Below are positions 1,586 to 20,258 of a stretch of DNA of 37,510 nucleotides, in pieces; the stretch's first letter is position 1, and every line of letters starts with the position of its first letter. Origin of the DNA: Pontimonas sp. (GTDB taxonomy: Bacteria; Actinomycetota; Actinomycetes; Actinomycetales; Microbacteriaceae); contig JANQZT010000010.1 in NCBI GenBank assembly GCA_030728325.1, positions 9,415 through 46,924 on the forward strand, in the 5' to 3' direction. Made by a program: the position numbers and the translations under genes. The notes under the pieces are model-generated. The model worked only from the letters and a program-made list of their open reading frames with translations, searched no databases and was not told where the DNA came from.

Positions 1586-2425
1586 TCAGCCTCGGGCACG
1601 AACGACCATGCTCTCCGGTGTGGTCACATCAATGACCTTAGATTCTTCAGAATCCAGAGCGATCAGGGCGGCTCTCAGAACTCGCGCTTTCTCAGGTGAA
1701 CGCTCAGACGAGCCCCACACCACTTCATGCGAACTTCCGCGAATCGTGAAACGAACATCATCCAAAGTGGTGGCCGTAATGCCCTCCACCTGTCCCAGAA
1801 GCTCATCAGGGAGTGTGCGCAAAACCCGAGTGATGGCTCCAAAGCTCGGAGACGTCGGGTCGGCCGCGACCAAAATTCTGGGGAGTCCGATGGGCAAGGT
1901 CGCCTCCTGCCACAGTGTTACTCCCGCTGCATCGACCACGTCGAAGGCTTCCCCGGCCAATACGGCACCGAGAGGTTTCCGCTCGATGATTGTCACCACC
2001 AGGGTTCCCGGCGGCTCGATCCGCGTTTCAAAAGCCTGAACCAGCGTGAGAGGCTCCAAGGCGATCTGAACGCGCTCATCATTCACACGCGCGAGCGGCT
2101 CTCCGTACAGACCCGAGAGAGCGTCTGCGACAGCCTGAGAGGTAACCCGATCGCCACCCTCTACACGGACCTCCCGAAACGCGAGAAGCGGTGAGAGGGT
2201 GAGAACCACCACACTCACCATCAGCAGGCCAATACTCCCCAATGACACAGCCCAGGTAATGCGGCGTCGCCTCGTTGCCTCGGTGAATCGTCGATACTCT
2301 GCTTTTTCTGCCGACACCCGCTGTTTGGTCGCCGTTTTCACCCGAGCAGCGGGCTTTGAGGAGCGCAACGTGCGGGGTGAGGACTTCCGAGAGCCTTTGG
2401 ACTGAAAACCCTCGGGCCTATCCAC
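1586..2425 (-). CDS. ftsQ: Cell division protein FtsQ/DivIB (POTRA domain)
   Basis: Single TM then FREVRVEGGDRVTSQAVADAL POTRA-like segment; dcw position; likely GTG start at 2425 overlapping the murC stop (the track start at 2488 lies inside murC). Confidence 0.9.
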   Translation of the reverse strand: MDRPEGFQSKGSRKSSPRTLRSSKPAARVKTATKQRVSAEKAEYRRFTEATRRRRITWAVSLGSIGLLMVSVVVLTLSPLLAFREVRVEGGDRVTSQAVADALSGLYGEPLARVNDERVQIALEPLTLVQAFETRIEPPGTLVVTIIERKPLGAVLAGEAFDVVDAAGVTLWQEATLPIGLPRILVAADPTSPSFGAITRVLRTLPDELLGQVEGITATTLDDVRFTIRGSSHEVVWGSSERSPEKARVLRAALIALDSEESKVIDVTTPESMVVRARG

Positions 2426-3830
2426 CAGATGCCTCGTCGGCTCGTCGTTTGGTCGCCAAGAGTAGCGGGACAATTTGGTAGAGGTCACCCGTCGACATCG
2501 TCAACACGATGTCTCCTGGCTGGGCCCGAGCCACCGCCAACTCACACGCACTCTCCCAGTCCGGCTCAAACTCAAATGAAGCGCCGCTGGCCATTTTCTG
2601 GAGGATGAGATCAGTCGTCACACCCTCAATCGGATCTTCGCGGGATCCAAAAATGTCCAGAAAAATCGTGTGGTCGCTTCCCACAGAGAACGCGCCTGCG
2701 AGTTCACCCGCCATGTATTGCGTGCGGGAATAGAGATGGGGCTGGAACATGGTGATGACGGATCCCTCCCCCACCACAGCGCGAGCAGTCTCCAAGGCCG
2801 CTGCAACTTCGGTGGGGTGATGAGCGTGGTCATCATAGAAGCGAACACCGCCGATCTCGCCATGGAACTGGAATCGTCGATCAGCGCCACGGAACCCACT
2901 CGCCGCGCTAGCAGCCTCGTCTAGCGAGTATCCGCTCGCCACAAGGGTGGCAATCACTCCGGTGGCATTGAGGGCATTAAGCCGGCCAGGAACTCCAAGC
3001 TCGCACCGCGCGCTAGCACCCTGATAGGTCACGGTGAAGCTCGCTACCGGACCTGCCACCAGATCTGTGTGCACCACATCAGCGCTCGGGGTGGACCCAT
3101 ACGTGAGAGTGGCGACGTCGTCGCCGAGCCTGGTGGCGAGATGCCGGGTTCCCTCATCATCAGCACACAGCACCACTGTCTCGGTAGCGCTGCGCGCAAA
3201 CTCCTCGAACGAGTCGTAAATGGCGTCGAGGGTCCCATAAAAATCGAGATGGTCAGGAGCGATATTGGTCACCATCGCGACGGCTGGTCGATAGTCGACA
3301 AACGAGCGATCTGACTCATCGGCCTCAATGACAAAGAGCTCGTCCTCTCCCCAACGGGAGGAAACACCCCACTCGCTCACCACACCGCCGTTGACAGCGC
3401 CAATCGGGCGACCGGACCGATCGAGCGCGGTCGCCAGCATCGCAGTGGAGGTGGTCTTCCCATGAGATCCCGCCACCGCAAGAACTCTCTTGCCCCGGAT
3501 AATCCAGCGCAACGCCTCCGAGCGATGCAACACCTGGAGTCCTCGAGCGCGGGCCTCCATCAACTCCGGGTTGTCCTCACGGACAGCACTAGAAATCACG
3601 ACAGTAGTGGCCTCTCCGAGGTGGGCAGGATCGTGCCCCACCGAGACTGTGATGCCAGCAGCCTGAAGAGACTCTGTGACTTCTGACGCAGACCGGTCAG
3701 ACCCCGATACCGTGAGCCCCCGCTCTGCCAATACCCGAGCGATTCCGCTCATACCTGAGCCGCCGATGCCAATGAAGTGCACCGTCCCTAACTCATCGGG
3801 AACAACGCGACCTAGTTCTGGTCTGACCAC
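2418..3830 (-). CDS. murC: UDP-N-acetylmuramate--L-alanine ligase MurC
   Basis: HFIGIGGSGMSGIA, AGSHGKTTST P-loop, EADESDRSF, NIAPDHLDFYGT, DDHAHHPTEV: catalytic motifs present. Confidence 0.96.
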   Translation of the reverse strand: MVRPELGRVVPDELGTVHFIGIGGSGMSGIARVLAERGLTVSGSDRSASEVTESLQAAGITVSVGHDPAHLGEATTVVISSAVREDNPELMEARARGLQVLHRSEALRWIIRGKRVLAVAGSHGKTTSTAMLATALDRSGRPIGAVNGGVVSEWGVSSRWGEDELFVIEADESDRSFVDYRPAVAMVTNIAPDHLDFYGTLDAIYDSFEEFARSATETVVLCADDEGTRHLATRLGDDVATLTYGSTPSADVVHTDLVAGPVASFTVTYQGASARCELGVPGRLNALNATGVIATLVASGYSLDEAASAASGFRGADRRFQFHGEIGGVRFYDDHAHHPTEVAAALETARAVVGEGSVITMFQPHLYSRTQYMAGELAGAFSVGSDHTIFLDIFGSREDPIEGVTTDLILQKMASGASFEFEPDWESACELAVARAQPGDIVLTMSTGDLYQIVPLLLATKRRADEASGG

Positions 3831-4924
3831 GAGGGAGCCTTTCTGCTCGGGGCGCTTGCCCGATGCATCATCTGGACAAAAGCTTCGGCGGCGTCCTTTC
3901 TCCCCAAGCCCTGAGCGCGTTGCCGCATACGCTTCACAGCAGCGTCATCTCCGAGCAACGGCAACACAGTGGCCCGAACATAATCCGGAGTGAAATCGCT
4001 GTCAGTGACCAAGACAGCGGACCCAGCCTGCAAAGAATCCCACGCGTTCTTCTCCTGCTCACCGTTGCCCACCGGGTAGGGAACAAAGACCGCGGGCAAA
4101 CCCAAGAGTTGAACTTCCGACACCGTGGCTGCTCCAGCGCGAGAAATCACGGCAGTGGCCGCCGCGAAGGCCAGATCCATGCGATCGCAGTACTTCAGCG
4201 CCACATAACCCGGTGTTTCGACCGTTGGCATCGGGTTTCGATTGCCCACAATGTGAAGAACCTGCCACCCGGCGGCAAGGATGTCCTCCACCACTGCCTG
4301 AACCGTCGAATTTATCGACACCGAGCCCTGCGACCCGCCTGTCACCAGCAGAGTCTTTTTCCGGGGAGACAAACCAAAGTGCGCCCGAGCGGCAGACAGC
4401 GTCGGCGTTGATGCGGGGTGAGTAATAGTGCGCGGCATCGGCATTCCCAGTAGCGTCGCACCAGGGAGTTTGGTCAGCGAAAATGTTGTCACGACGTGCG
4501 GCGTGAGCCTGGCACCCCAGCGGTTGGCGAAGCCGGGAACAGCGTTGGCTTCATGTATCACCAAGGGGACCCGAAGCGCCCAGGCCGCCACATAAACCGG
4601 CGCAGAGACATAGCCACCGAAGCCCGCCACAACATCAGGGCGGTGCGAGCGAAGGAGCCGCATGCTCCGCAAAACAGCCCCCACAAATCGCGGCCAAAAG
4701 AGCAGGGCTTCGGCATTCACTCTCCGGGGAAAGGGCAACCTCGCAATGGTGTTCAGGGTGAAGCCCGCCTCGGGGACCAGGCGAGTTTCCAGGCCCTCTT
4801 TCGTGCCAATCACCAGAATGTCCCCCGGAGTCGACGAGCCCTGTCGCACGAGCTCATCAGCCACCGCAAGCAGAGGATTCACATGGCCCGCGGTACCCCC
4901 GCCGGCAAGCACCACCCTCATCAT
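3812..4924 (-). CDS. murG: MurG lipid II glycosyltransferase
   Basis: VLAGGGTAGHVNPLLAVADEL, GFGGYVSAPVYVAA, VTGGSQGSVSIN, SRAGAATVSE. Confidence 0.96.
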   Translation of the reverse strand: MMRVVLAGGGTAGHVNPLLAVADELVRQGSSTPGDILVIGTKEGLETRLVPEAGFTLNTIARLPFPRRVNAEALLFWPRFVGAVLRSMRLLRSHRPDVVAGFGGYVSAPVYVAAWALRVPLVIHEANAVPGFANRWGARLTPHVVTTFSLTKLPGATLLGMPMPRTITHPASTPTLSAARAHFGLSPRKKTLLVTGGSQGSVSINSTVQAVVEDILAAGWQVLHIVGNRNPMPTVETPGYVALKYCDRMDLAFAAATAVISRAGAATVSEVQLLGLPAVFVPYPVGNGEQEKNAWDSLQAGSAVLVTDSDFTPDYVRATVLPLLGDDAAVKRMRQRAQGLGRKDAAEAFVQMMHRASAPSRKAPSWSDQN

Positions 4925-6159
4925 CGAGAGGAGCTCCGTCGGTTCTTACCTGCGGTAACGGAGATTGCATCGTGCCTATTCACAGACATCACCACTCCGA
5001 TACCGATGAGAGACGCCATCAAGGCCGATCCCCCGACCGACATGAAGGGTAACGGCACGCCAAGGACGGGAAGGACCTCAAGAACCACGGCAATGTTGAT
5101 CAATGCCTGACCGATCAACCAGACCATGACTCCCCCAGTGACGAGACGGGCAAAAGGGTCTGGCTGTGCGCGCACCAGCCGGGCCATCACCACCGCCAGA
5201 ATGACGAAGGAAATAATCACCATGCTGGTGCCAATAAGACCCAACTCTTCGCCGACGATGGCAAAAATGAAGTCGGTTTCAGCGTGGGGCAACCAGGACC
5301 ATTTAGCGCGGGAGTTCCCCAGCCCCACACCGAGGACTCCTCCAGAACCCAGCGCATAGGTGGAGTGAACGATCTGCCAACACGTCCCCAGATAGTCCTC
5401 TTCGGTGCAGCCTGAAAACCAGGTCATGATGCGGTTGATGCGGGAGGGGCTCAACATGGCCAACATTGCTACTCCAGCAGCAATCACTGCCACAACAGTG
5501 AAAAGGTGGCTCAGTCTCGCTCCCGCAAGAAAGACGATCCCCAGTGCAATCACGACCATGACTCCCATGGTTCCCAGGTCTTGCCCCATCATGACCAAGC
5601 TCAAGGCAATGAGAACTCCCAGTCCCAGCGGTCTCATGAGGGTGCGGTAATCCTCAACCTGATCGATGCGGTCGGCAAGAATCGCCGCCATCCAAATGAT
5701 CATGGCAACCTTCAAGATTTCCGAGGGTTGCCCGGTGAAACCGGCGATGTTGACCCAGTTGGTGTTACCGCCGGAGGTAATTCCCAGAGGAGTAAACACC
5801 AGACCCTGGAGAAGCAGAGCCACGAGAAAAATCGTCGGGGCAAGTTTCTTGAGGGCCCGTGCAGGGAATCGTGAAATCACCAGCATCGCAGGGATACCCA
5901 GCAAGACCCACATCACCTGACGGAAAAAGGTGGCAAAGAAGTTGCCGTCATTACCGAGAGCAGACCCCACAAAGGACGAGGAAAGAACCATCACCAAGCC
6001 GAAAATGACCAGGAAAAAAACCATGGACACCATGACCACGTAATCGGCGGATTCCCGGCCAAAAAGGCGCTTAACGCTGACCGTCATACGGGGTGCAGAC
6101 GGCTTGGATGCGACTTGAGTCACTGGCCGTTCACCTGCTTTCACCCACGGAACCTTCAT
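4921..6159 (-). CDS. ftsW: FtsW SEDS-family peptidoglycan glycosyltransferase
   Basis: Multi-TM protein; NWVNIAGFTGQPSEILK and PHAETDFIFAIVGEELG SEDS signatures; ATGA overlap with murG. Confidence 0.94.
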   Translation of the reverse strand: MKVPWVKAGERPVTQVASKPSAPRMTVSVKRLFGRESADYVVMVSMVFFLVIFGLVMVLSSSFVGSALGNDGNFFATFFRQVMWVLLGIPAMLVISRFPARALKKLAPTIFLVALLLQGLVFTPLGITSGGNTNWVNIAGFTGQPSEILKVAMIIWMAAILADRIDQVEDYRTLMRPLGLGVLIALSLVMMGQDLGTMGVMVVIALGIVFLAGARLSHLFTVVAVIAAGVAMLAMLSPSRINRIMTWFSGCTEEDYLGTCWQIVHSTYALGSGGVLGVGLGNSRAKWSWLPHAETDFIFAIVGEELGLIGTSMVIISFVILAVVMARLVRAQPDPFARLVTGGVMVWLIGQALINIAVVLEVLPVLGVPLPFMSVGGSALMASLIGIGVVMSVNRHDAISVTAGKNRRSSSR

Positions 6160-6254: not shown

Positions 6255-7259
6255 TTAGGGAAGGCTCAAGACACCAGCTATCAGTGCCGGTGCGACGTCT
6301 TTGGAGCGAGTGATGGCGATCGCTGCGAGGAGTGCCGGTAGCTGCTCGGGAACCTGCCACCCCGCCTCGCGCACTTCCTCCAGTGTCGAAATCTCAAGAG
6401 CTTGATGAGCGCGATCATCGAGAAATGCTCGGTCCACGATGATCCCCTCTACGAGGCCAATATCGCTCATTCCTGGCGAATCAAGTCCCAGACCAATCGC
6501 TCGCGCTCCCTCGACCACATCGGCATCGTGAACCTGCGCCTCCGTGGGGCCGACACCTTTGCGGTAAACGCAGGCCTGGGTTGTGCCATCGAAAAACACC
6601 CCGCTGTCATCTGTCCCTTCGGTCTCCAGCGAGACAGTAATCGAGGGGCTGATGTAGCTCTGTGGAAAACGCTGGCGCCACTGAAGGGAGGAGGCGGACA
6701 CCTGCACAATCAGCGCGGAATAGGCCCTGGGTTCACGTAGAGCATCGAGAACCGGCGGGGCCCCGAAGCCGACAACCCTCGTCGGGACTGCTGCGGCCTG
6801 AAAAATACGCTGAGCGATGTCTACCGCGCTATCGCTCTCGGCGCTGTGGCGGACCATTATCCAGTCTGCTGGATCGCCCGCCTTGTCCCGGAGTCTCCAC
6901 GCAAGCTCAAGATCCGACCACAAGGGAATTTCCGATTCCACCAGTTGCTCGATGACAGGATCATCAGGCTTCACTCCTGGGGATACAACCGCGAGGTCCC
7001 ATGAGCTAGCTCCCACAACCTCTACGCGACGAGCCGCCTCATCGACAGTGACCTTGGCACCCACGACTTCGGCGAGTTTCACCAGGTCACTGTTCGCTGT
7101 GACAGCAACGACCGAGACGTCGCACCCCAGTTCACACAAAGTGTCAACCAGTGCGAAGCCTGTCTGGCCCAAGCCCACCACAACAACGCGGAGACCCGTC
7201 CAGGAGGAGTGCCAACTGGTGAGCCCGGAAAGGGAGTCCTCACTCAACGACTGAGCCAC
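6255..7259 (-). CDS. Degenerate MurD-like protein: N-terminal Rossmann-like domain plus eroded central domain; P-loop and C-terminal domain absent
   Basis: dcw position between mraY and ftsW; VVVVGLGQTGFAL, VVSPGVKPDDPV, ADVVEGARAIGLGLDSPGMSDIGLVEGIIVDRAFL resemble actinobacterial MurD; WIMVRHSAESDSAVD sits where W(V/I)xVTGTNGKTT is expected; ORF ends at 334 aa. Confidence 0.85.
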   Translation of the reverse strand: MAQSLSEDSLSGLTSWHSSWTGLRVVVVGLGQTGFALVDTLCELGCDVSVVAVTANSDLVKLAEVVGAKVTVDEAARRVEVVGASSWDLAVVSPGVKPDDPVIEQLVESEIPLWSDLELAWRLRDKAGDPADWIMVRHSAESDSAVDIAQRIFQAAAVPTRVVGFGAPPVLDALREPRAYSALIVQVSASSLQWRQRFPQSYISPSITVSLETEGTDDSGVFFDGTTQACVYRKGVGPTEAQVHDADVVEGARAIGLGLDSPGMSDIGLVEGIIVDRAFLDDRAHQALEISTLEEVREAGWQVPEQLPALLAAIAITRSKDVAPALIAGVLSLP

Positions 7260-8341
7260 TCCAGGTAGAACAGTCCCGCACCCACCGCCGCGAAGAGGCC
7301 CGCGATGAGCCAGAATCTCACCACAATGGTGACCTCAGCCCATCCCTTGATTTCGTAATGGTGGTGCAGAGGAGACGAGTAGAAGATTCTGCGCCCCCCG
7401 GTGGCCTTGAAATACAAGCGTTGAAGAATCACAGACCCGGTCAGGATGACAAACAGTCCTCCGACAATGGGAAGCAACACCTCGGTCCGCGAGAACAGGG
7501 CAAGCGCTGCCACCCCACCGCCCAAAGCGAGAGACCCGGTGTCTCCCATGAAAATCTTCGCCGGGGAAGTGTTCCACCAGAGGAAACCAATCAAGCTCGC
7601 CGCCACTATGGCGGCAACCGCGGTGAGCTCGAGCGAATCTCGAACCTCGTAACACTTATAGAGAACATCCTCGTCGGGGAAGGCTCGGAAACATGACTGG
7701 TTGAACTGCCAGAACGTGATCATGACGTACGCAACAAACACCAGGATTGTCGCCCCGCTGGCGAGCCCATCCAAACCATCGGTCAGGTTCACCGCATTGG
7801 ATGTTCCCACGATGATGAGAGTTGCCCACACCGCAAACGCCACAACCGCTGCCCAGTAGCCCCATTGCACGAAGGACAGAAGATCTGCGCCTCTCACGAC
7901 CGAAATTCCTTGAGCGGCGGGGGTTACTCCGTTCTCATCGGGGAAAGAGACTGCCCCCCAAGCGAACGCCACTGAGACCGCAAGTTGACCAATAACTTTC
8001 CCGCGCGGCGATAGCCCCAGGGACTGCTGGCGTCGCACTTTGGAAAAGTCGTCCAAGAAACCGACCAACCCCAAACCCACCATCAGCCCGATGACGAGGA
8101 GCCCGGAAGGGCTTGGCATGCGACCCTCGATCAGATGGGCACCGAAAAAGCCAAACAGCACCGCCAACAGAATGACGATTCCGCCCATTGTGGGAGTGCC
8201 GCGCTTCACATAGTGAGTCTTCGGGCCATCTTGACGAATGAATTGTCCCCACCCTATTTTCGCGAAAAGACGAATAAAAAGTGGGGTGAGGAACAGGGAG
8301 AAGCCCAAGGCCAAGGCACTACCCAACAACAGTATTCTCAC
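7244..8341 (-). CDS. mraY: Phospho-N-acetylmuramoyl-pentapeptide-transferase MraY
   Basis: GTPTMGGIVIL, NAVNLTDGLDGLASG, FMGDTGSLALGG, PLHHHYEIKGWAE. Confidence 0.97.
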   Translation of the reverse strand: MRILLLGSALALGFSLFLTPLFIRLFAKIGWGQFIRQDGPKTHYVKRGTPTMGGIVILLAVLFGFFGAHLIEGRMPSPSGLLVIGLMVGLGLVGFLDDFSKVRRQQSLGLSPRGKVIGQLAVSVAFAWGAVSFPDENGVTPAAQGISVVRGADLLSFVQWGYWAAVVAFAVWATLIIVGTSNAVNLTDGLDGLASGATILVFVAYVMITFWQFNQSCFRAFPDEDVLYKCYEVRDSLELTAVAAIVAASLIGFLWWNTSPAKIFMGDTGSLALGGGVAALALFSRTEVLLPIVGGLFVILTGSVILQRLYFKATGGRRIFYSSPLHHHYEIKGWAEVTIVVRFWLIAGLFAAVGAGLFYLEWLSR

Positions 8342-8985
8342 GAGAGGTCGGCTTTCAGCTTCTCAACCATCTCGGACAAAGGCTCATCGGTGCTCCCGAG
8401 AACAAGGACAACGTCTCCCGGCCTAATGTGCGCACGGATGTCATCGTACGCGCTGTCGCTGTCCTCGCAGAACCGCGACTCTCCATCCCAGGAACCCTCC
8501 ATACCCACCGACAGGAATAAGGCCCTGGCTCCTCGACCTACTGCAAAGACCTGGGTCACATTAAGTCGAACCATGAGAGCACCAAACGCACTGAGATTGT
8601 CGTAGTCAGATTCCCCCGAGAAATCGAGAGTTCCGGCGACAGCCACCACCCGACGGGTACCACGGGCGAGTGCGGAGACTGACTTGGTGATGTCCACAGC
8701 GGGCGAAGCCTGGGTGACATGAGACGCATCGACCAAAATCACGTCGTTGGACATCAGACTTCCGACTGGCAGCTCTTCAGAAGCCCCGAGCGTGATCGCT
8801 TCCTTGAGTGCGTCCATCAGGCTCGAACCGAGCGCTAGCTGGTCTCGCACAATACCCAGTGCCGCATCTCTCGCCTCGAGACTGATGCCCCTAATGCGCA
8901 GTGTTTCCGAGGCGTCCCCAAGAGTCAGTTTTGCGCCGGTGGACTCCCAATCCAGCCACTCCTCCGTGACCTGCAGTGCGCTCAT
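8338..8985 (-). CDS. Truncated MurF-like protein (end of central domain plus C-terminal domain only)
   Basis: Position between murE and mraY; AFGALMVRLNVTQVFAVGRGARALF...EGSWDGES...AYDDIRAHIRPGDVVLVLGS matches the MurF C-terminal domain; no GTNGKT. ATG at 8985 overlaps the murE TGA (ATGA), so the true product is about 215 aa. Confidence 0.83.
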   Translation of the reverse strand: MSALQVTEEWLDWESTGAKLTLGDASETLRIRGISLEARDAALGIVRDQLALGSSLMDALKEAITLGASEELPVGSLMSNDVILVDASHVTQASPAVDITKSVSALARGTRRVVAVAGTLDFSGESDYDNLSAFGALMVRLNVTQVFAVGRGARALFLSVGMEGSWDGESRFCEDSDSAYDDIRAHIRPGDVVLVLGSTDEPLSEMVEKLKADLS

Positions 8986-10523
8986 GATGTCTTGCCCCAC
9001 CCTGCATCCTGGAGAGCCTGTCGAGCTTGTTCGCGCGCCGAGTAGGGAATTTTGACCCCTCCGATATCGCGATAATCCTGAGAGCCCGGTCCGCTCCACA
9101 GGATCGTGTCGCCCTCCTGGGCGAGAGACACGGCGAAACGGATGGCCTCACTGGGGTCGGGGATTTCGTGCACTGGAACCCCGTGGATAGCGCGCGCGCC
9201 CTCGAGGAGTCCCTCGCGAATCACGGTCGGATCCTCCCGACGGGGGTCATCATCGGTAATGATCACAACATCGGCATGTTCAGCTGCGGTGCGACCCATG
9301 ATGGGACGCTTCGTCGCGTCTCGGTTCCCAGAGGTTCCACAGACCATGATGAGCGAGCCAGAGGTTGATGTCCTCAGAGCCGAGAGAGTCTGCTCGTACG
9401 CATCCGCACTTCGTCCGGCGTCCACATAGACCTGAGGTCCTCGTAAGCCTGACACCCGCTCCATTCGCCCCGGGATAAAGACTGGAATTCCTTTTGTTCC
9501 AGGGCCGAGCACTGCCAGCTCCTCCCACGTGACACCAGAGCGAATAACCATCACCGTCGCCAGGGCAGCATTAGCAACCATGTGGTCTCCTGTCAGGGGG
9601 ACCACAATCTCCCCCTTGGCCCCCTCTGGGGATTCCAGGACGAAGGTTGTCGACTCGCCCTGAACATCCACGATGTCCCACGACCACTGGGCCGAAGCGC
9701 TCCCCCGGCGGCCGAGTGTGGTGCAGGGAATGGTCACCTTTGAGGCAAGCTTCTGACCCCATGTCGTGTCCACACACACCACTGCCTCTCGCGCTTTCTC
9801 AACCGTGAACAGCGCGGCCTTGGCCTCGAGATAGTTGTCCATCGTCTGAAAATCCTCGAGGTGGTCATGACTGAGGTTGGTGAAACCCGCAACATCACAC
9901 ACCACCTGGTCCATGCGATTCTTGTTCAGAGCTTGGGCGCTGATCTCGACCGCGATCGCGCTCACGCCTTCCTCCCTCGCACGCGCAATCATGGCGTGGG
10001 TGTCCGGCGCCTCCGGTGTGGTGAGCGTGCTCGGAAAATTCTCACCGTTTACTTGACGAAGTGCCGTCGTGGATAAGGCCGTGCGCGCCCCCAGACCCCG
10101 CATGATCGCTTCGAGCAGGAACGCGGTCGACGTCTTTCCATTCGTGCCCGTCACGCCCAAAATGGTGGGCACGGAGTCAGGGTGTGTTCCATAGATTTCT
10201 GCCGACACCGCCCCCACAAGAGCCCGAGGATCCGGGGCCACGAGAATCGGCACCGAGGAATCTTCGAGCGCAGCCCAACCCTCTTCGTCGGTGAACACAG
10301 CGACTGCACCCGAGGCGAGGGCGTCGGGCCAAAATTCGCTCCCGTGACGATTCACACCCCGCACTGCCACAAAGAGGTCACCGGCCTGCACTGCAGAGGA
10401 CGCCAGCGCCACCCCTGTGACACTCACGTCCTGACCACGGTGCTGAAGTCCGAGTGCGAAGGCTAGAGAACTGAGAGTCTTTGGCGAGGTGGACAGGGGT
10501 CGCAGCGCTCGAGCTTTATGCAC
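8982..10523 (-). CDS. murE: MurE-type Mur ligase (UDP-MurNAc-tripeptide synthetase family)
   Basis: ILGVTGTNGKTSTAFLLEAI, TTPEAPDTHAM, FTNLSHDHLEDF, GNRDATKRPIMGR, TDDDPRREDP, C-terminal ILWSGPGSQDYRDIGGVKIPYSARE. Confidence 0.9.
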   Translation of the reverse strand: MHKARALRPLSTSPKTLSSLAFALGLQHRGQDVSVTGVALASSAVQAGDLFVAVRGVNRHGSEFWPDALASGAVAVFTDEEGWAALEDSSVPILVAPDPRALVGAVSAEIYGTHPDSVPTILGVTGTNGKTSTAFLLEAIMRGLGARTALSTTALRQVNGENFPSTLTTPEAPDTHAMIARAREEGVSAIAVEISAQALNKNRMDQVVCDVAGFTNLSHDHLEDFQTMDNYLEAKAALFTVEKAREAVVCVDTTWGQKLASKVTIPCTTLGRRGSASAQWSWDIVDVQGESTTFVLESPEGAKGEIVVPLTGDHMVANAALATVMVIRSGVTWEELAVLGPGTKGIPVFIPGRMERVSGLRGPQVYVDAGRSADAYEQTLSALRTSTSGSLIMVCGTSGNRDATKRPIMGRTAAEHADVVIITDDDPRREDPTVIREGLLEGARAIHGVPVHEIPDPSEAIRFAVSLAQEGDTILWSGPGSQDYRDIGGVKIPYSAREQARQALQDAGWGKTS

Positions 10524-16685: not shown

Positions 16686-18239
16686 GTGACACCGTTGTTG
16701 CACGGAGCGTCGCTACGCCCGTCAGCGCTGTGCCACGAAACGATGGAAGACATGACACACCAGGACTCCCACGCTCAGACCACTGAGGCATTCGAGGAAT
16801 CTCTCGAGCACTCAGTTTTTCGGGGTCTTTCTCCACGGCTCGAGACTTTTCAGGAATGCGAGAGTGCCTCCGGCGCTGTGTCTCGAGGTCTCATGGGCGC
16901 GCTCCCCTTCGTGATGTCGGGAACACTCGCAACGAGCGCAATTGTTACACCTGGCCTCGTTCAACACTCCGCCCAGCCTGCGGAGCCAGGTGCCAGCGCT
17001 GATCACGCCAATGATCAGCGTCCAGGATTTGGTGAGCGACTCTCTGGAGCTTTTCTTCCCGTGGCCCATTCTGTTCTCTCGACTGTTCGACCCGACCTCC
17101 CCGCGACCTACGTGGTGCAAGGAGGCGACACTATTTCCTCTATTGCCGACAGCTTTGGAATCCCGACACCCGCCGTCTTGACCCTCAATGCGTTGAGTTG
17201 GAACGCTGTCCTTCACCCGGGACAGGTACTCAAGCTGAGTGCAGAGCCCACGAAAAAGGCAGCAGCGTCACCTGCTCGAGTGGCAGGCAATGCTTACCTT
17301 GTCCAATCTGGCGAAACAATGAGCACCATTGCCGATCGTTTGGGGATATCAACAACCGCCCTCACTCAGGCCAATAATTTGACGGAAGATTCCACCATTT
17401 ATGCGGGTCAAATGATCCGCATCCCAGGCTCCACCGCTCCCGTCGTGGAGCGTGACGCTGAGCTCGTCATGCCGGCCCTAGCATCCGCCCCGACCATCAT
17501 CCCCGCCTCCGTTGAATCCACTGACCAGGTGATGTCCAGCAATGACGAGAGCGAAGATCAAGAGCAAACCTCGAGTGATTCCCCCGAGGTTTTTGATGCT
17601 GCCGATATCGAGCTAGCCGAAAAGCCCGCTCTGATTACCGTCAAGGTACCCACTCCTCAAGCCCCCGTTGCGGCAAAGAAGGTCACGCCCGTTGCCACTC
17701 CTGTCGTGAAGAAGGAGACGCCTGCGCCGAGCCCGGCACCGGTAACCCCTGCGGAATCTGAGCCTGAAGAGAGCGAAGAAGAGGCGGAGCCCACATCTAC
17801 TATCGGGCAACCTGTGACCGGCAGCGTGACGCCACTCAACGATGAAAGACGGACCAACGCGCAAATCATTGTCAATGTTGGGCGGGAGATGGGAATCTCC
17901 GACTACGGAATTGTGATTGCGCTCGCCACCGCCATGCAGGAATCCTCGTTACGCAACATCAACTGGGGAGATCGCGACTCTGTGGGTCTCTACCAGCAAC
18001 GTCCCTCCTCCGGTTGGGGAACTGTCGAGCAAATCATGGACCCGGCATACGCAACGCGCCTGTTCTTTGGTGGCCCCAACAACCCCAATAAAGGTAAGAC
18101 GCGAGGATTGCTGGACATCTCAGGGTGGGAGTCCATGGCCTTGACAGTTGCTGCCCAACGAGTTCAGATTTCTGCCTACCCCGATGCTTACGCAAAGTGG
18201 GAGCCCAGTGCGTGGGCTTGGCTTTATGAATTGACCTAG
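16686..18239 (+). CDS. LysM-repeat cell-wall protein with C-terminal lysozyme-like domain
   Basis: Two LysM segments (YVVQGGDTISSIADSFGI..., YLVQSGETMSTIADRLGI...), C-terminal NAQIIVNVGREMGISDYGIVIALATAMQESSLRN...GLYQQRPSSGWGT. Start uncertain: GTG 16686 or ATG 16743/16752. Confidence 0.85.
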   Translation: MTPLLHGASLRPSALCHETMEDMTHQDSHAQTTEAFEESLEHSVFRGLSPRLETFQECESASGAVSRGLMGALPFVMSGTLATSAIVTPGLVQHSAQPAEPGASADHANDQRPGFGERLSGAFLPVAHSVLSTVRPDLPATYVVQGGDTISSIADSFGIPTPAVLTLNALSWNAVLHPGQVLKLSAEPTKKAAASPARVAGNAYLVQSGETMSTIADRLGISTTALTQANNLTEDSTIYAGQMIRIPGSTAPVVERDAELVMPALASAPTIIPASVESTDQVMSSNDESEDQEQTSSDSPEVFDAADIELAEKPALITVKVPTPQAPVAAKKVTPVATPVVKKETPAPSPAPVTPAESEPEESEEEAEPTSTIGQPVTGSVTPLNDERRTNAQIIVNVGREMGISDYGIVIALATAMQESSLRNINWGDRDSVGLYQQRPSSGWGTVEQIMDPAYATRLFFGGPNNPNKGKTRGLLDISGWESMALTVAAQRVQISAYPDAYAKWEPSAWAWLYELT

Positions 18240-18287: not shown

Positions 18288-20258
18288 ATGGATACTCCAC
18301 CTACTGATCCGCTCCTTGGCAGGCTGGTGGATAAGCGCTATCTCATTGAGAGCAAAGTAGCTCGCGGTGGCATGGCGACCGTCTATCAAGCGATGGATCA
18401 ACGGCTCGAGCGTCCTGTGGCCATCAAAATCATGCACCCTCACCTCGCCGAGGATGGCGACTTCACGAAACGTTTTATCCAGGAAGCTCGCCAGGCCGCG
18501 AGACTCGCCCATCCCAACATTGTCAACGTGTTTGACCAGGGGCAAGACGGTGCCATCACCTTCATCGTCATGGAGTACCTTCCCGGCATCACCCTCCGGG
18601 AACTGCTGCAGGACTTTGGAGCTCTCACCCCTGCACAAACCGTCGACATTGTTCGCGCAGTCCTGCAAGGCCTCGACGCGGCCCATTCTGGAGGTATCGT
18701 CCATCGAGACCTCAAACCAGAAAATGTCCTCCTCGCCGATGACGGTCGCATCAAAATCGCCGATTTTGGTCTCGCTCGTGCCTCAACCCACAACACCGCG
18801 ACCTCGCAGGCCCTCCTCGGAACCATCGCTTATCTCAGCCCTGAACTGATCAGTCGTGGTGAGGCTGACTTGCGCAGCGATATCTACGCACTGGGCATCA
18901 TGATGTTCGAGATGCTCACCGGTTCCCAGCCTTATCAAGGCGACCAAGCGGTCACCATCGCCTATCAACACCAGAACGACATTGTCCCCCCGCCCAGCTC
19001 AAAGAACCCGGCGATACCGGCGCAATTCGATGAGCTCGTCGATTGGTGCACAAGGCGCTCACCTGACGAGCGTCCCCCTCACGCCAGGGCTGTCTTGGAG
19101 CACCTGGTCGAGGTTGAGAAACTTTTGGGTGCCGCGTCACTGGCCACCGCGACGATGGATCTAAATCAGACAGTGGCCATGACGCAGAGACTGTCTCCTT
19201 TGGATGCCCAAGACACAGAAGTCTTGGATCCTAAATCTGCTGTCTTCGACGGCTTGGAGCCTGCGCCCACCCAGGCCATCGCCATAGACGAGCTTCCCGC
19301 GCAAGAGCCAGTGCGTGATCGGCGACCGCCTCGCGGGAGGCGCCTCGCACTCCTCGGAACGCTTGTCCTACTGCTGGTACTCGGTGGAGGCGGTGGGGCT
19401 GCCTGGTGGTGGTTCACAGGCCCCGGCGCGATGGTGAGCGTTCCCGACGTCTCCGGGACATCCGTTTTGGAGGCAACAGCGACTCTGGTGGAGGCGGAAC
19501 TCACAGTCTCCGAGGCAGTCTTGGAGGAATTTGACCTCGTGCTCCCGGAGGGGACAGTGAAAGGTACAACACCTGCTGCAGGCACTGAAATCGAGAAACA
19601 AAGTGAGATACGCCTCATCGTCTCGTTGGGTCCAAACCCCGTGGCTGTTCCCGCAATATCTGGACAAGCCCTGGACGAGGTACGCAGCGCTTTGGAGACC
19701 GTGAACCTGATTCTGGGAACAACAAGTCCCGAGTTCAACGACTTTGTCCAGCGAGGCTCAGTCCTGCGTCTCGTGGATGAGGCTGGCACCACTTTGGCAG
19801 CTGGATCGCAAGTGCTTGCCGGTTCCACGGTGAACGCAGTGGTCTCCGCAGGAGCGCTGCCCGATGTCACGGGGCTACCAGTCGATGAGGCCCGAGAGAT
19901 TCTCCAAGACGCTGGCGTTACCGGAGTCGTCGGAGGTGACGGTGCCTTCTCGGACACTGTCCCCGAAGGCTATGTCGTCGAAGTTTCTCTACCTGCGGGA
20001 GCAACACCGCGCCCCGGTGACACCCTCACTCTCATCGTCTCCCGAGGCCCAGAGCTCGTGATGGTTCCCGATCTGGTCGGCGAGACCATTGCGGACGCCA
20101 AAGACATTCTGGAGGGACTGGGCTTTGAGGTCGAAGTGCGCTCAGAATTTCCCGAATCCGATTGGGATCGCTCGTTTGCGCGCGTCACCAGCCTGAGCCC
20201 GAGCTCCGGTCAGGAGATCGCCAAGGGCGCCCTGGTGATCATCCGCAGCTTCGTTTAG
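18288..20258 (+). CDS. pknB: PknB/Stk-type Ser/Thr protein kinase with four PASTA repeats
   Basis: VAIKIMHPHL, VHRDLKPENVLL, DFGLA, GTIAYLSPEL, TM segment, four extracellular PASTA-like repeats. Confidence 0.94.
   Translation: MDTPPTDPLLGRLVDKRYLIESKVARGGMATVYQAMDQRLERPVAIKIMHPHLAEDGDFTKRFIQEARQAARLAHPNIVNVFDQGQDGAITFIVMEYLPGITLRELLQDFGALTPAQTVDIVRAVLQGLDAAHSGGIVHRDLKPENVLLADDGRIKIADFGLARASTHNTATSQALLGTIAYLSPELISRGEADLRSDIYALGIMMFEMLTGSQPYQGDQAVTIAYQHQNDIVPPPSSKNPAIPAQFDELVDWCTRRSPDERPPHARAVLEHLVEVEKLLGAASLATATMDLNQTVAMTQRLSPLDAQDTEVLDPKSAVFDGLEPAPTQAIAIDELPAQEPVRDRRPPRGRRLALLGTLVLLLVLGGGGGAAWWWFTGPGAMVSVPDVSGTSVLEATATLVEAELTVSEAVLEEFDLVLPEGTVKGTTPAAGTEIEKQSEIRLIVSLGPNPVAVPAISGQALDEVRSALETVNLILGTTSPEFNDFVQRGSVLRLVDEAGTTLAAGSQVLAGSTVNAVVSAGALPDVTGLPVDEAREILQDAGVTGVVGGDGAFSDTVPEGYVVEVSLPAGATPRPGDTLTLIVSRGPELVMVPDLVGETIADAKDILEGLGFEVEVRSEFPESDWDRSFARVTSLSPSSGQEIAKGALVIIRSFV

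Follow-up and report, generated by a model that had tools for sequence, protein, structure and literature searches.

A catalytically dead MurD retained in the dcw cluster of Pontimonas and other Microbacteriaceae that carry MurL homologs

Introduction

Why would a bacterium keep, between mraY and ftsW of its dcw cluster, a MurD that has lost its catalytic motifs and an entire domain? The question is raised by a 37,510-nucleotide stretch of the genome of Pontimonas sp. (hereafter, the window), in which a first-pass annotation, made from the sequence alone, recognized a 334-residue remnant of MurD and proposed that it is under selection as a pseudoenzyme or scaffold. It has long been asked whether the Mur ligases assemble physically with MurG, MraY, and FtsW and whether their roles are structural as well as catalytic, but the essentiality of these enzymes makes the question hard to test. 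MurG and MreB bind MurD, MurE, and MurF (PMC6420597, PMC4929429), which makes a noncatalytic role for MurD plausible, and PAP11, a MurE homolog, is a subunit of the plastid RNA polymerase (PMC12681378). The genome paper on Pontimonas salivibrio CL-TW6 called its peptidoglycan genes mostly typical (PMC6106888). Our search of the literature, largely without subscription journals, found no paper on a MurD pseudoenzyme or a truncated dcw murD.

Results

The dcw MurD of Pontimonas lacks the ligase motifs

The dcw genes of the window lie on the minus strand in the order mraZ, mraW, ftsI, murE, a murF stub, mraY, the murD remnant (hereafter, pseudo-murD), ftsW, murG, murC, ftsQ, and ftsZ (Table 1). 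Pseudo-murD has therefore kept the dcw position of murD, mraY-X-ftsW. The first-pass description of the cluster as live holds for mraY, murE, ftsW, and murC, which are intact, but not for murF, which is also a stub, so that the cluster is not fully live. Beyond the cluster, the opposite strand encodes a LysM protein (16686–18239, plus strand) and a PknB-type Ser/Thr kinase with a PASTA domain (18288–20258, plus strand).

Table 1. Coordinates of the dcw genes and of features within pseudo-murD, numbered from the first nucleotide of the window
Feature	Coordinates	Strand	Description
murC	2418–3830	-	Intact
murG	3812–4924	-	Candidate partner
ftsW	4921–6159	-	Intact; 95 nt downstream of pseudo-murD
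pseudo-murD	6255–7259	-	GTG start, 334 aa; MurD N-terminal and central domains, catalytically dead, no C-terminal domain
Best-kept block	6360–6575	-	Residues 229–300, ACVYRK...VEGARAIGLGLDSPGMSDIGLVEGIIVDRAFLDDR...; candidate retained interface, from column conservation
Deletion site of DHLDWH and the following lysine helix	6597–6650	-	Residues 204–221, SPSITVSLETEGTDDSGV; from alignment
Former P-loop	6825–6848	-	Residues 138–145, HSAESDSA replacing GTNGKTTT; from alignment to 13 canonical MurDs
mraY	7244–8341	-	Intact; 16-nt overlap with pseudo-murD (7244–7259)
murF stub	8338–8985	-	215 aa; end of central domain and C-terminal domain, no N-terminal domain, no P-loop
murE	8982–10523	-	Intact

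Alignment to canonical MurDs from Microbacteriaceae shows what has been lost. The P-loop GTNGKTTT, present in all 13 of these enzymes, is replaced in pseudo-MurD by a sequence without the GxxGK[ST] pattern of a MurD ligase. The DHxDxH segment for Mg and substrate is deleted together with the carbamylated lysine, and the protein ends near residue 344 of the 511 in the canonical enzyme, where the C-terminal ligase domain with its LDxHR...DDSKATN would start. Over the part that they have in common, identity to MurDs of the family reaches about 45%. Pfam recognizes MurD-like_N alone (PF21799, E 1.3e-8; 35.4 bits, over the cut-off of 27), with no match to Mur_ligase_M or Mur_ligase_C (PF02875), and the score against the TIGR01087 murD model, 64.7 bits over residues 24–199 only, falls short of the equivalog cut-off of 211.95. 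What pseudo-MurD shares with MurD (TIGR01087) is the slot between mraY and ftsW and the fold of the N-terminal and central domains; without P-loop, DHLDWH, catalytic lysine, and C-terminal domain, it cannot ligate. The first-pass reading is thus upheld in its particulars, from the altered P-loop position, the missing DHLDxH segment, and the end ahead of the DDSKATN-bearing domain to the overlap with mraY, and we consider it virtually certain that pseudo-MurD is not a ligase.

Pseudo-MurD is conserved and predicted to fold

A pseudo-murD ORF lies between mraY and ftsW in all 19 Pontimonas species genomes, at 35 to 85% identity to the window copy, and its frame is open in 17 of them, down to 35 to 40% identity. 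A stop at codon 4 occurs in G165, a genome with 10% contamination. The frameshift in G156 is probably an assembly error because the neighboring ftsW, murC, and murE on the same contig are broken too. Pairwise dN/dS is 0.04 to 0.13, within the range of MurG (0.05–0.22), MurC (0.03–0.08), MurE (0.03–0.12), and FtsQ, with synonymous sites near saturation for most pairs, which speaks against constraint at the nucleotide level. Two trivial origins of the remnant were considered and rejected: an assembly or consensus error, since the truncation is common to 18 other genomes, and random frameshift decay, given the low dN/dS and the open frames of the orthologs.

Conservation is unevenly spread along the protein. 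Among the columns conserved in canonical MurDs, the dead MurDs keep 22 of 25 in the N-terminal domain and 30 of 37 in the late central region (residues 216–334), as against 26 of 54 in the catalytic middle, and the letters at the P-loop are scattered; catalytic positions drift freely while fold positions are kept. Within Pontimonas, the majority residue reaches frequencies of 0.76 to 0.86 over residues 241–300. AlphaFold predicts a two-domain fold with confidence (pLDDT 94.3, pTM 0.91), and a fold search with this model returned MurDs as the closest solved structures (best, 3lk7, TMq 0.72); with this one pseudo-MurD as the query, a search by sequence against PDB chains gave no match. Pseudo-MurD combines a homologous fold, loss of the catalytic residues, and purifying selection, the marks of a conserved pseudoenzyme, and this conservation across 19 species supports the selection proposed at first pass. 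That the protein is kept by selection appears to us very probable.

A MurD2–MurL pair probably supplies the D-Glu linkage

A genome search for a second full-length murD, which the first-pass annotation had suggested along with the Pfam, AlphaFold, and dN/dS analyses given above, found one. Six proteins with a Mur_ligase_M domain are encoded in the source genome (G000; 1.24 Mb, 92% complete): MurE, MurC, FolC, MurT, a MurF on contig C54 (561 aa), and a MurD-like ligase on contig C68 (492 aa). The C68 ligase (locus L004) is full length, scores 294 bits against TIGR01087, and adjoins a MurL homolog. Aligned to Escherichia coli MurD, it has all four MurD2 residues, D182E, K348R, A414P, and L416F, the same positions to which the L-Glu specificity of Xanthomonas oryzae MurD2 has been assigned (PMC8788868). 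The MurL homolog (C68, L004/L093) matches the MurL model NF041275 at 296 to 325 bits over positions 3–425 of 447, below the model's Xanthomonadales cut-off of 700. At L004 (251–979 and 976–3463, minus strand), an ORF that by eye resembles RNase PH (rph) comes after MurL and MurD2.

No glutamate racemase (MurI) was found in G000. Across genomes, MurI (TIGR00067) scored above cut-off in 16 of 16 MurL-negative and in none of 22 MurL-positive genomes, three of the 22 being from a second family. A MurD2 with the four L-Glu residues, an adjacent MurL homolog, and no racemase together point to MurD2–MurL as the probable route of D-Glu into the stem peptide; homology thus suggests that G000 makes the linkage with an L-Glu ligase and an epimerase, like the pathway of Xanthomonas and Micromonospora (PMC8788868), to which it corresponds in the specificity residues, the lack of MurI, and, as judged by homology, the adjacent gene pair. 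The pathway would thereby extend to Microbacteriaceae, a family absent from the list in the 2021 review. MurL homologs also occur in Gordonia, Mycolicibacterium, and Mycobacterium (L304, L306, L308, L310), genera outside that review.

MurD truncation recurs with MurL

A scan of 400 Microbacteriaceae for MurL gave 22 positives in eight genera, and we compared the dcw regions of all 22 with those of 48 MurL-negative genomes that have a measurable mraY–ftsW interval. Every one of the 48 MurL-negative loci has an intact MurD with P-loop and DDSKAT and an mraY–ftsW distance of 1357 to 1741 nt, whereas 20 of the 22 MurL-positive loci lack the MurD C-terminal domain and span 1008 to 1298 nt. In most truncated copies, the alignment to canonical MurD stops at residue 335–349 of 511. 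The remaining two MurL-positive genomes, G043 and G588, have full-length but decayed dcw MurDs: both have lost the HR and GG..KG letters, and G043 reads GSSGKSTT at the P-loop, DHLDGWH, and DDSRATT. In G647, the C-terminal domain is gone, and GTKGKTTT and HLDWH are still there. From their sequences, these three copies look like intermediates of a process in which C-domain residues would decay, the domain would then be lost, and the P-loop would follow. Within Pontimonas, the MurL scan covered all but nine genomes and was negative for G162 (79% complete); these nine and G162 all have a second, MurD2-sized ligase domain.

On a tree built from MraY, FtsW, MurG, and MurC, and hence from dcw genes themselves, the truncated state needs seven changes, each forced by supported branches. 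A single ancestral truncation was rejected when the genomes with the truncation were constrained to one clade (p-AU 7e-5). Each truncated group is nested among genomes with intact MurD, and a domain once lost would hardly be regained; we therefore read the changes as at least seven independent truncations. MurL and truncation agree in six to seven independent pairs, with none against (p 0.016–0.031), and genus g6 is itself split, with intact MurD in the MurL-negative G005 and G088 and truncated MurD in the MurL-positive G605 and G647. We regard it as highly likely that the pseudo-MurD state follows from takeover by MurD2–MurL.

Outcomes vary beyond the Microbacteriaceae. The identical truncation occurs in a second family of actinobacteria (f34), where three genomes show it. 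Other MurL-positive genomes have cleanly deleted dcw murD (Micromonospora-like G259 and G358; Mycolicibacterium-like G499; and G383, G229, G244, G187, and G352), which implies that the role of pseudo-MurD is not universal, and in G334 and G182 the gene has been swapped in place for MurL–MurD2. G383 and G499, which lack dcw murD, are relatives of the MurL-carrying Gordonia, Mycolicibacterium, and Mycobacterium. The mraY–ftsW interval of G360 (L170) holds only a C-terminal MurD scrap (canonical positions 413–488), the opposite part of MurD from that retained in Microbacteriaceae. Four genomes, G262 (L173), G302 (L180), G501 (L165), and G221 (L166), are actinobacterial exceptions to the pattern and combine a MurL homolog with an apparently intact dcw MurD.

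The murF stub is a parallel case

The murF stub of the window matches Pfam solely in the Mur_ligase_C domain of MurF; its coordinates give overlaps of ATGA with murE and GTGA with mraY. AlphaFold predicts a good fold (pLDDT 94.2), and the stub contains the invariant motif EGSWDGES at residues 163–170. This motif is the best kept in both murF stubs and intact MurF and is a candidate interface of the MurF C-terminal domain. The full-length MurF on C54 (L002:814–2499), which has an N-terminal hydrophobic region that is probably a membrane anchor, substitutes for the dcw MurF. Strong homologs of the C54 type occur in Pontimonas, g80, g68, G074, and G038, the remaining genomes having weak canonical MurF matches only. 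The dcw murF is shortened in Pontimonas, g80, g68, G029, and probably G038; in G029, a canonical-type MurF sits on a separate contig. An alternative MurF is present wherever the dcw murF is cut short, and murF stubs therefore go with a second MurF in MurL-positive and MurL-negative genomes alike. With the murF stub, the cluster holds another example of what is seen in pseudo-MurD.

Discussion

The takeover by MurD2–MurL as a cause, its recurrence, the parallel murF stub, and the full-length MurD and MurF elsewhere in the genome all go beyond the first-pass annotation. We think that pseudo-MurD is probably a conserved pseudoenzyme that serves as a structural partner in a Mur/divisome complex, and on balance our analysis favors such a scaffolding role over one in ligand binding or regulation. 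Once MurD2–MurL had taken over the chemistry, the dcw MurD would have been freed from catalysis and would have lost first its D-Glu and ATP residues, followed by the entire C-terminal domain and the P-loop, with strong purifying selection holding the N-terminal and central domains as a folded protein, at least seven times in Microbacteriaceae. The retained body may dock in a membrane-proximal assembly through MurG, MraY, or FtsW, whose genes flank pseudo-murD, such that losing it would disturb the assembly even though the chemistry is done elsewhere. The Mur assemblies organized around MurG and MreB offer the nearest comparison, although the MurD, MurE, and MurF that bind there are active enzymes (PMC6420597, PMC4929429). 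PAP11 resembles pseudo-MurD as a Mur ligase homolog that has become a structural part of a complex but differs in being a MurE homolog in a transcription complex (PMC12681378).

The main rival, given that the UDP-binding loops (GxG..G and SPG), glycines included, are mostly retained, is a ligand-binding or regulatory pseudoenzyme. Its N-terminal domain would still bind UDP-MurNAc(-L-Ala), or the protein would bind and tune a Mur enzyme such as MurD2 or MurC. Of 27 truncated copies, all keep G29 and G34, 20 keep G31, and 23 each keep S93 and P94, and the 22 retained N-domain columns point the same way. Against this, SPG is changed in several lineages, G31 varies in seven copies, and an Asn that 13 of 13 canonical MurDs have in their CGNIG segment survives in 4 of the 27; we consider such a role unlikely, if still a serious contender. 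We give much less weight to the idea that the ORF merely couples or spaces translation, letting ribosomes pass from mraY toward ftsW while the protein is idle. The conserved mraY overlap and the fixed gene order in Pontimonas would fit it, as would the similar overlaps of murE, murF, and mraY, but coupling needs an open frame and not a protein sequence, and the low dN/dS with near-saturated synonymous sites, the coincidence of conserved columns with fold columns, and the shrinkage of the mraY–ftsW gap to 105 to 465 nt in other lineages all count against it.

A functionless pseudogene decaying in a streamlined genome would account for catalytic motifs that appear to have decayed stepwise (G588, G043, G647), but it is very improbable given 17 open frames in 19 genomes, dN/dS far below 1, a confidently predicted fold, and at least seven parallel retentions reaching one end point. 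We find it scarcely credible that pseudo-MurD is half of a split enzyme made active by a C-terminal domain from another gene. The ORF does end exactly at the domain boundary, and the murF stub offers a free Mur_ligase_C domain; however, the P-loop, acidic residues, and lysine are themselves lost, and, apart from the murF stub, neither G000 nor the complete genome of P. salivibrio was found to encode an orphan C-terminal domain (PF02875). A split gene was rejected on these grounds.

Catalysis has probably moved to MurD2–MurL while the dead MurD was repeatedly kept, and if pseudo-MurD is indeed a structural partner, nature has separated the two roles. More tentatively, and with somewhat less than even confidence, we suggest that MurD of Microbacteriaceae has a second, nonenzymatic function in organizing the Mur/divisome machinery, which may reside in the N-terminal and central domains and be laid bare whenever MurD2–MurL takes over. 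A MurF counterpart might reside in the C-terminal domain, and the remnants would be natural separation-of-function proteins for both enzymes. For genome annotation, a murD assigned by synteny would be wrong in the genomes with a dead dcw MurD.
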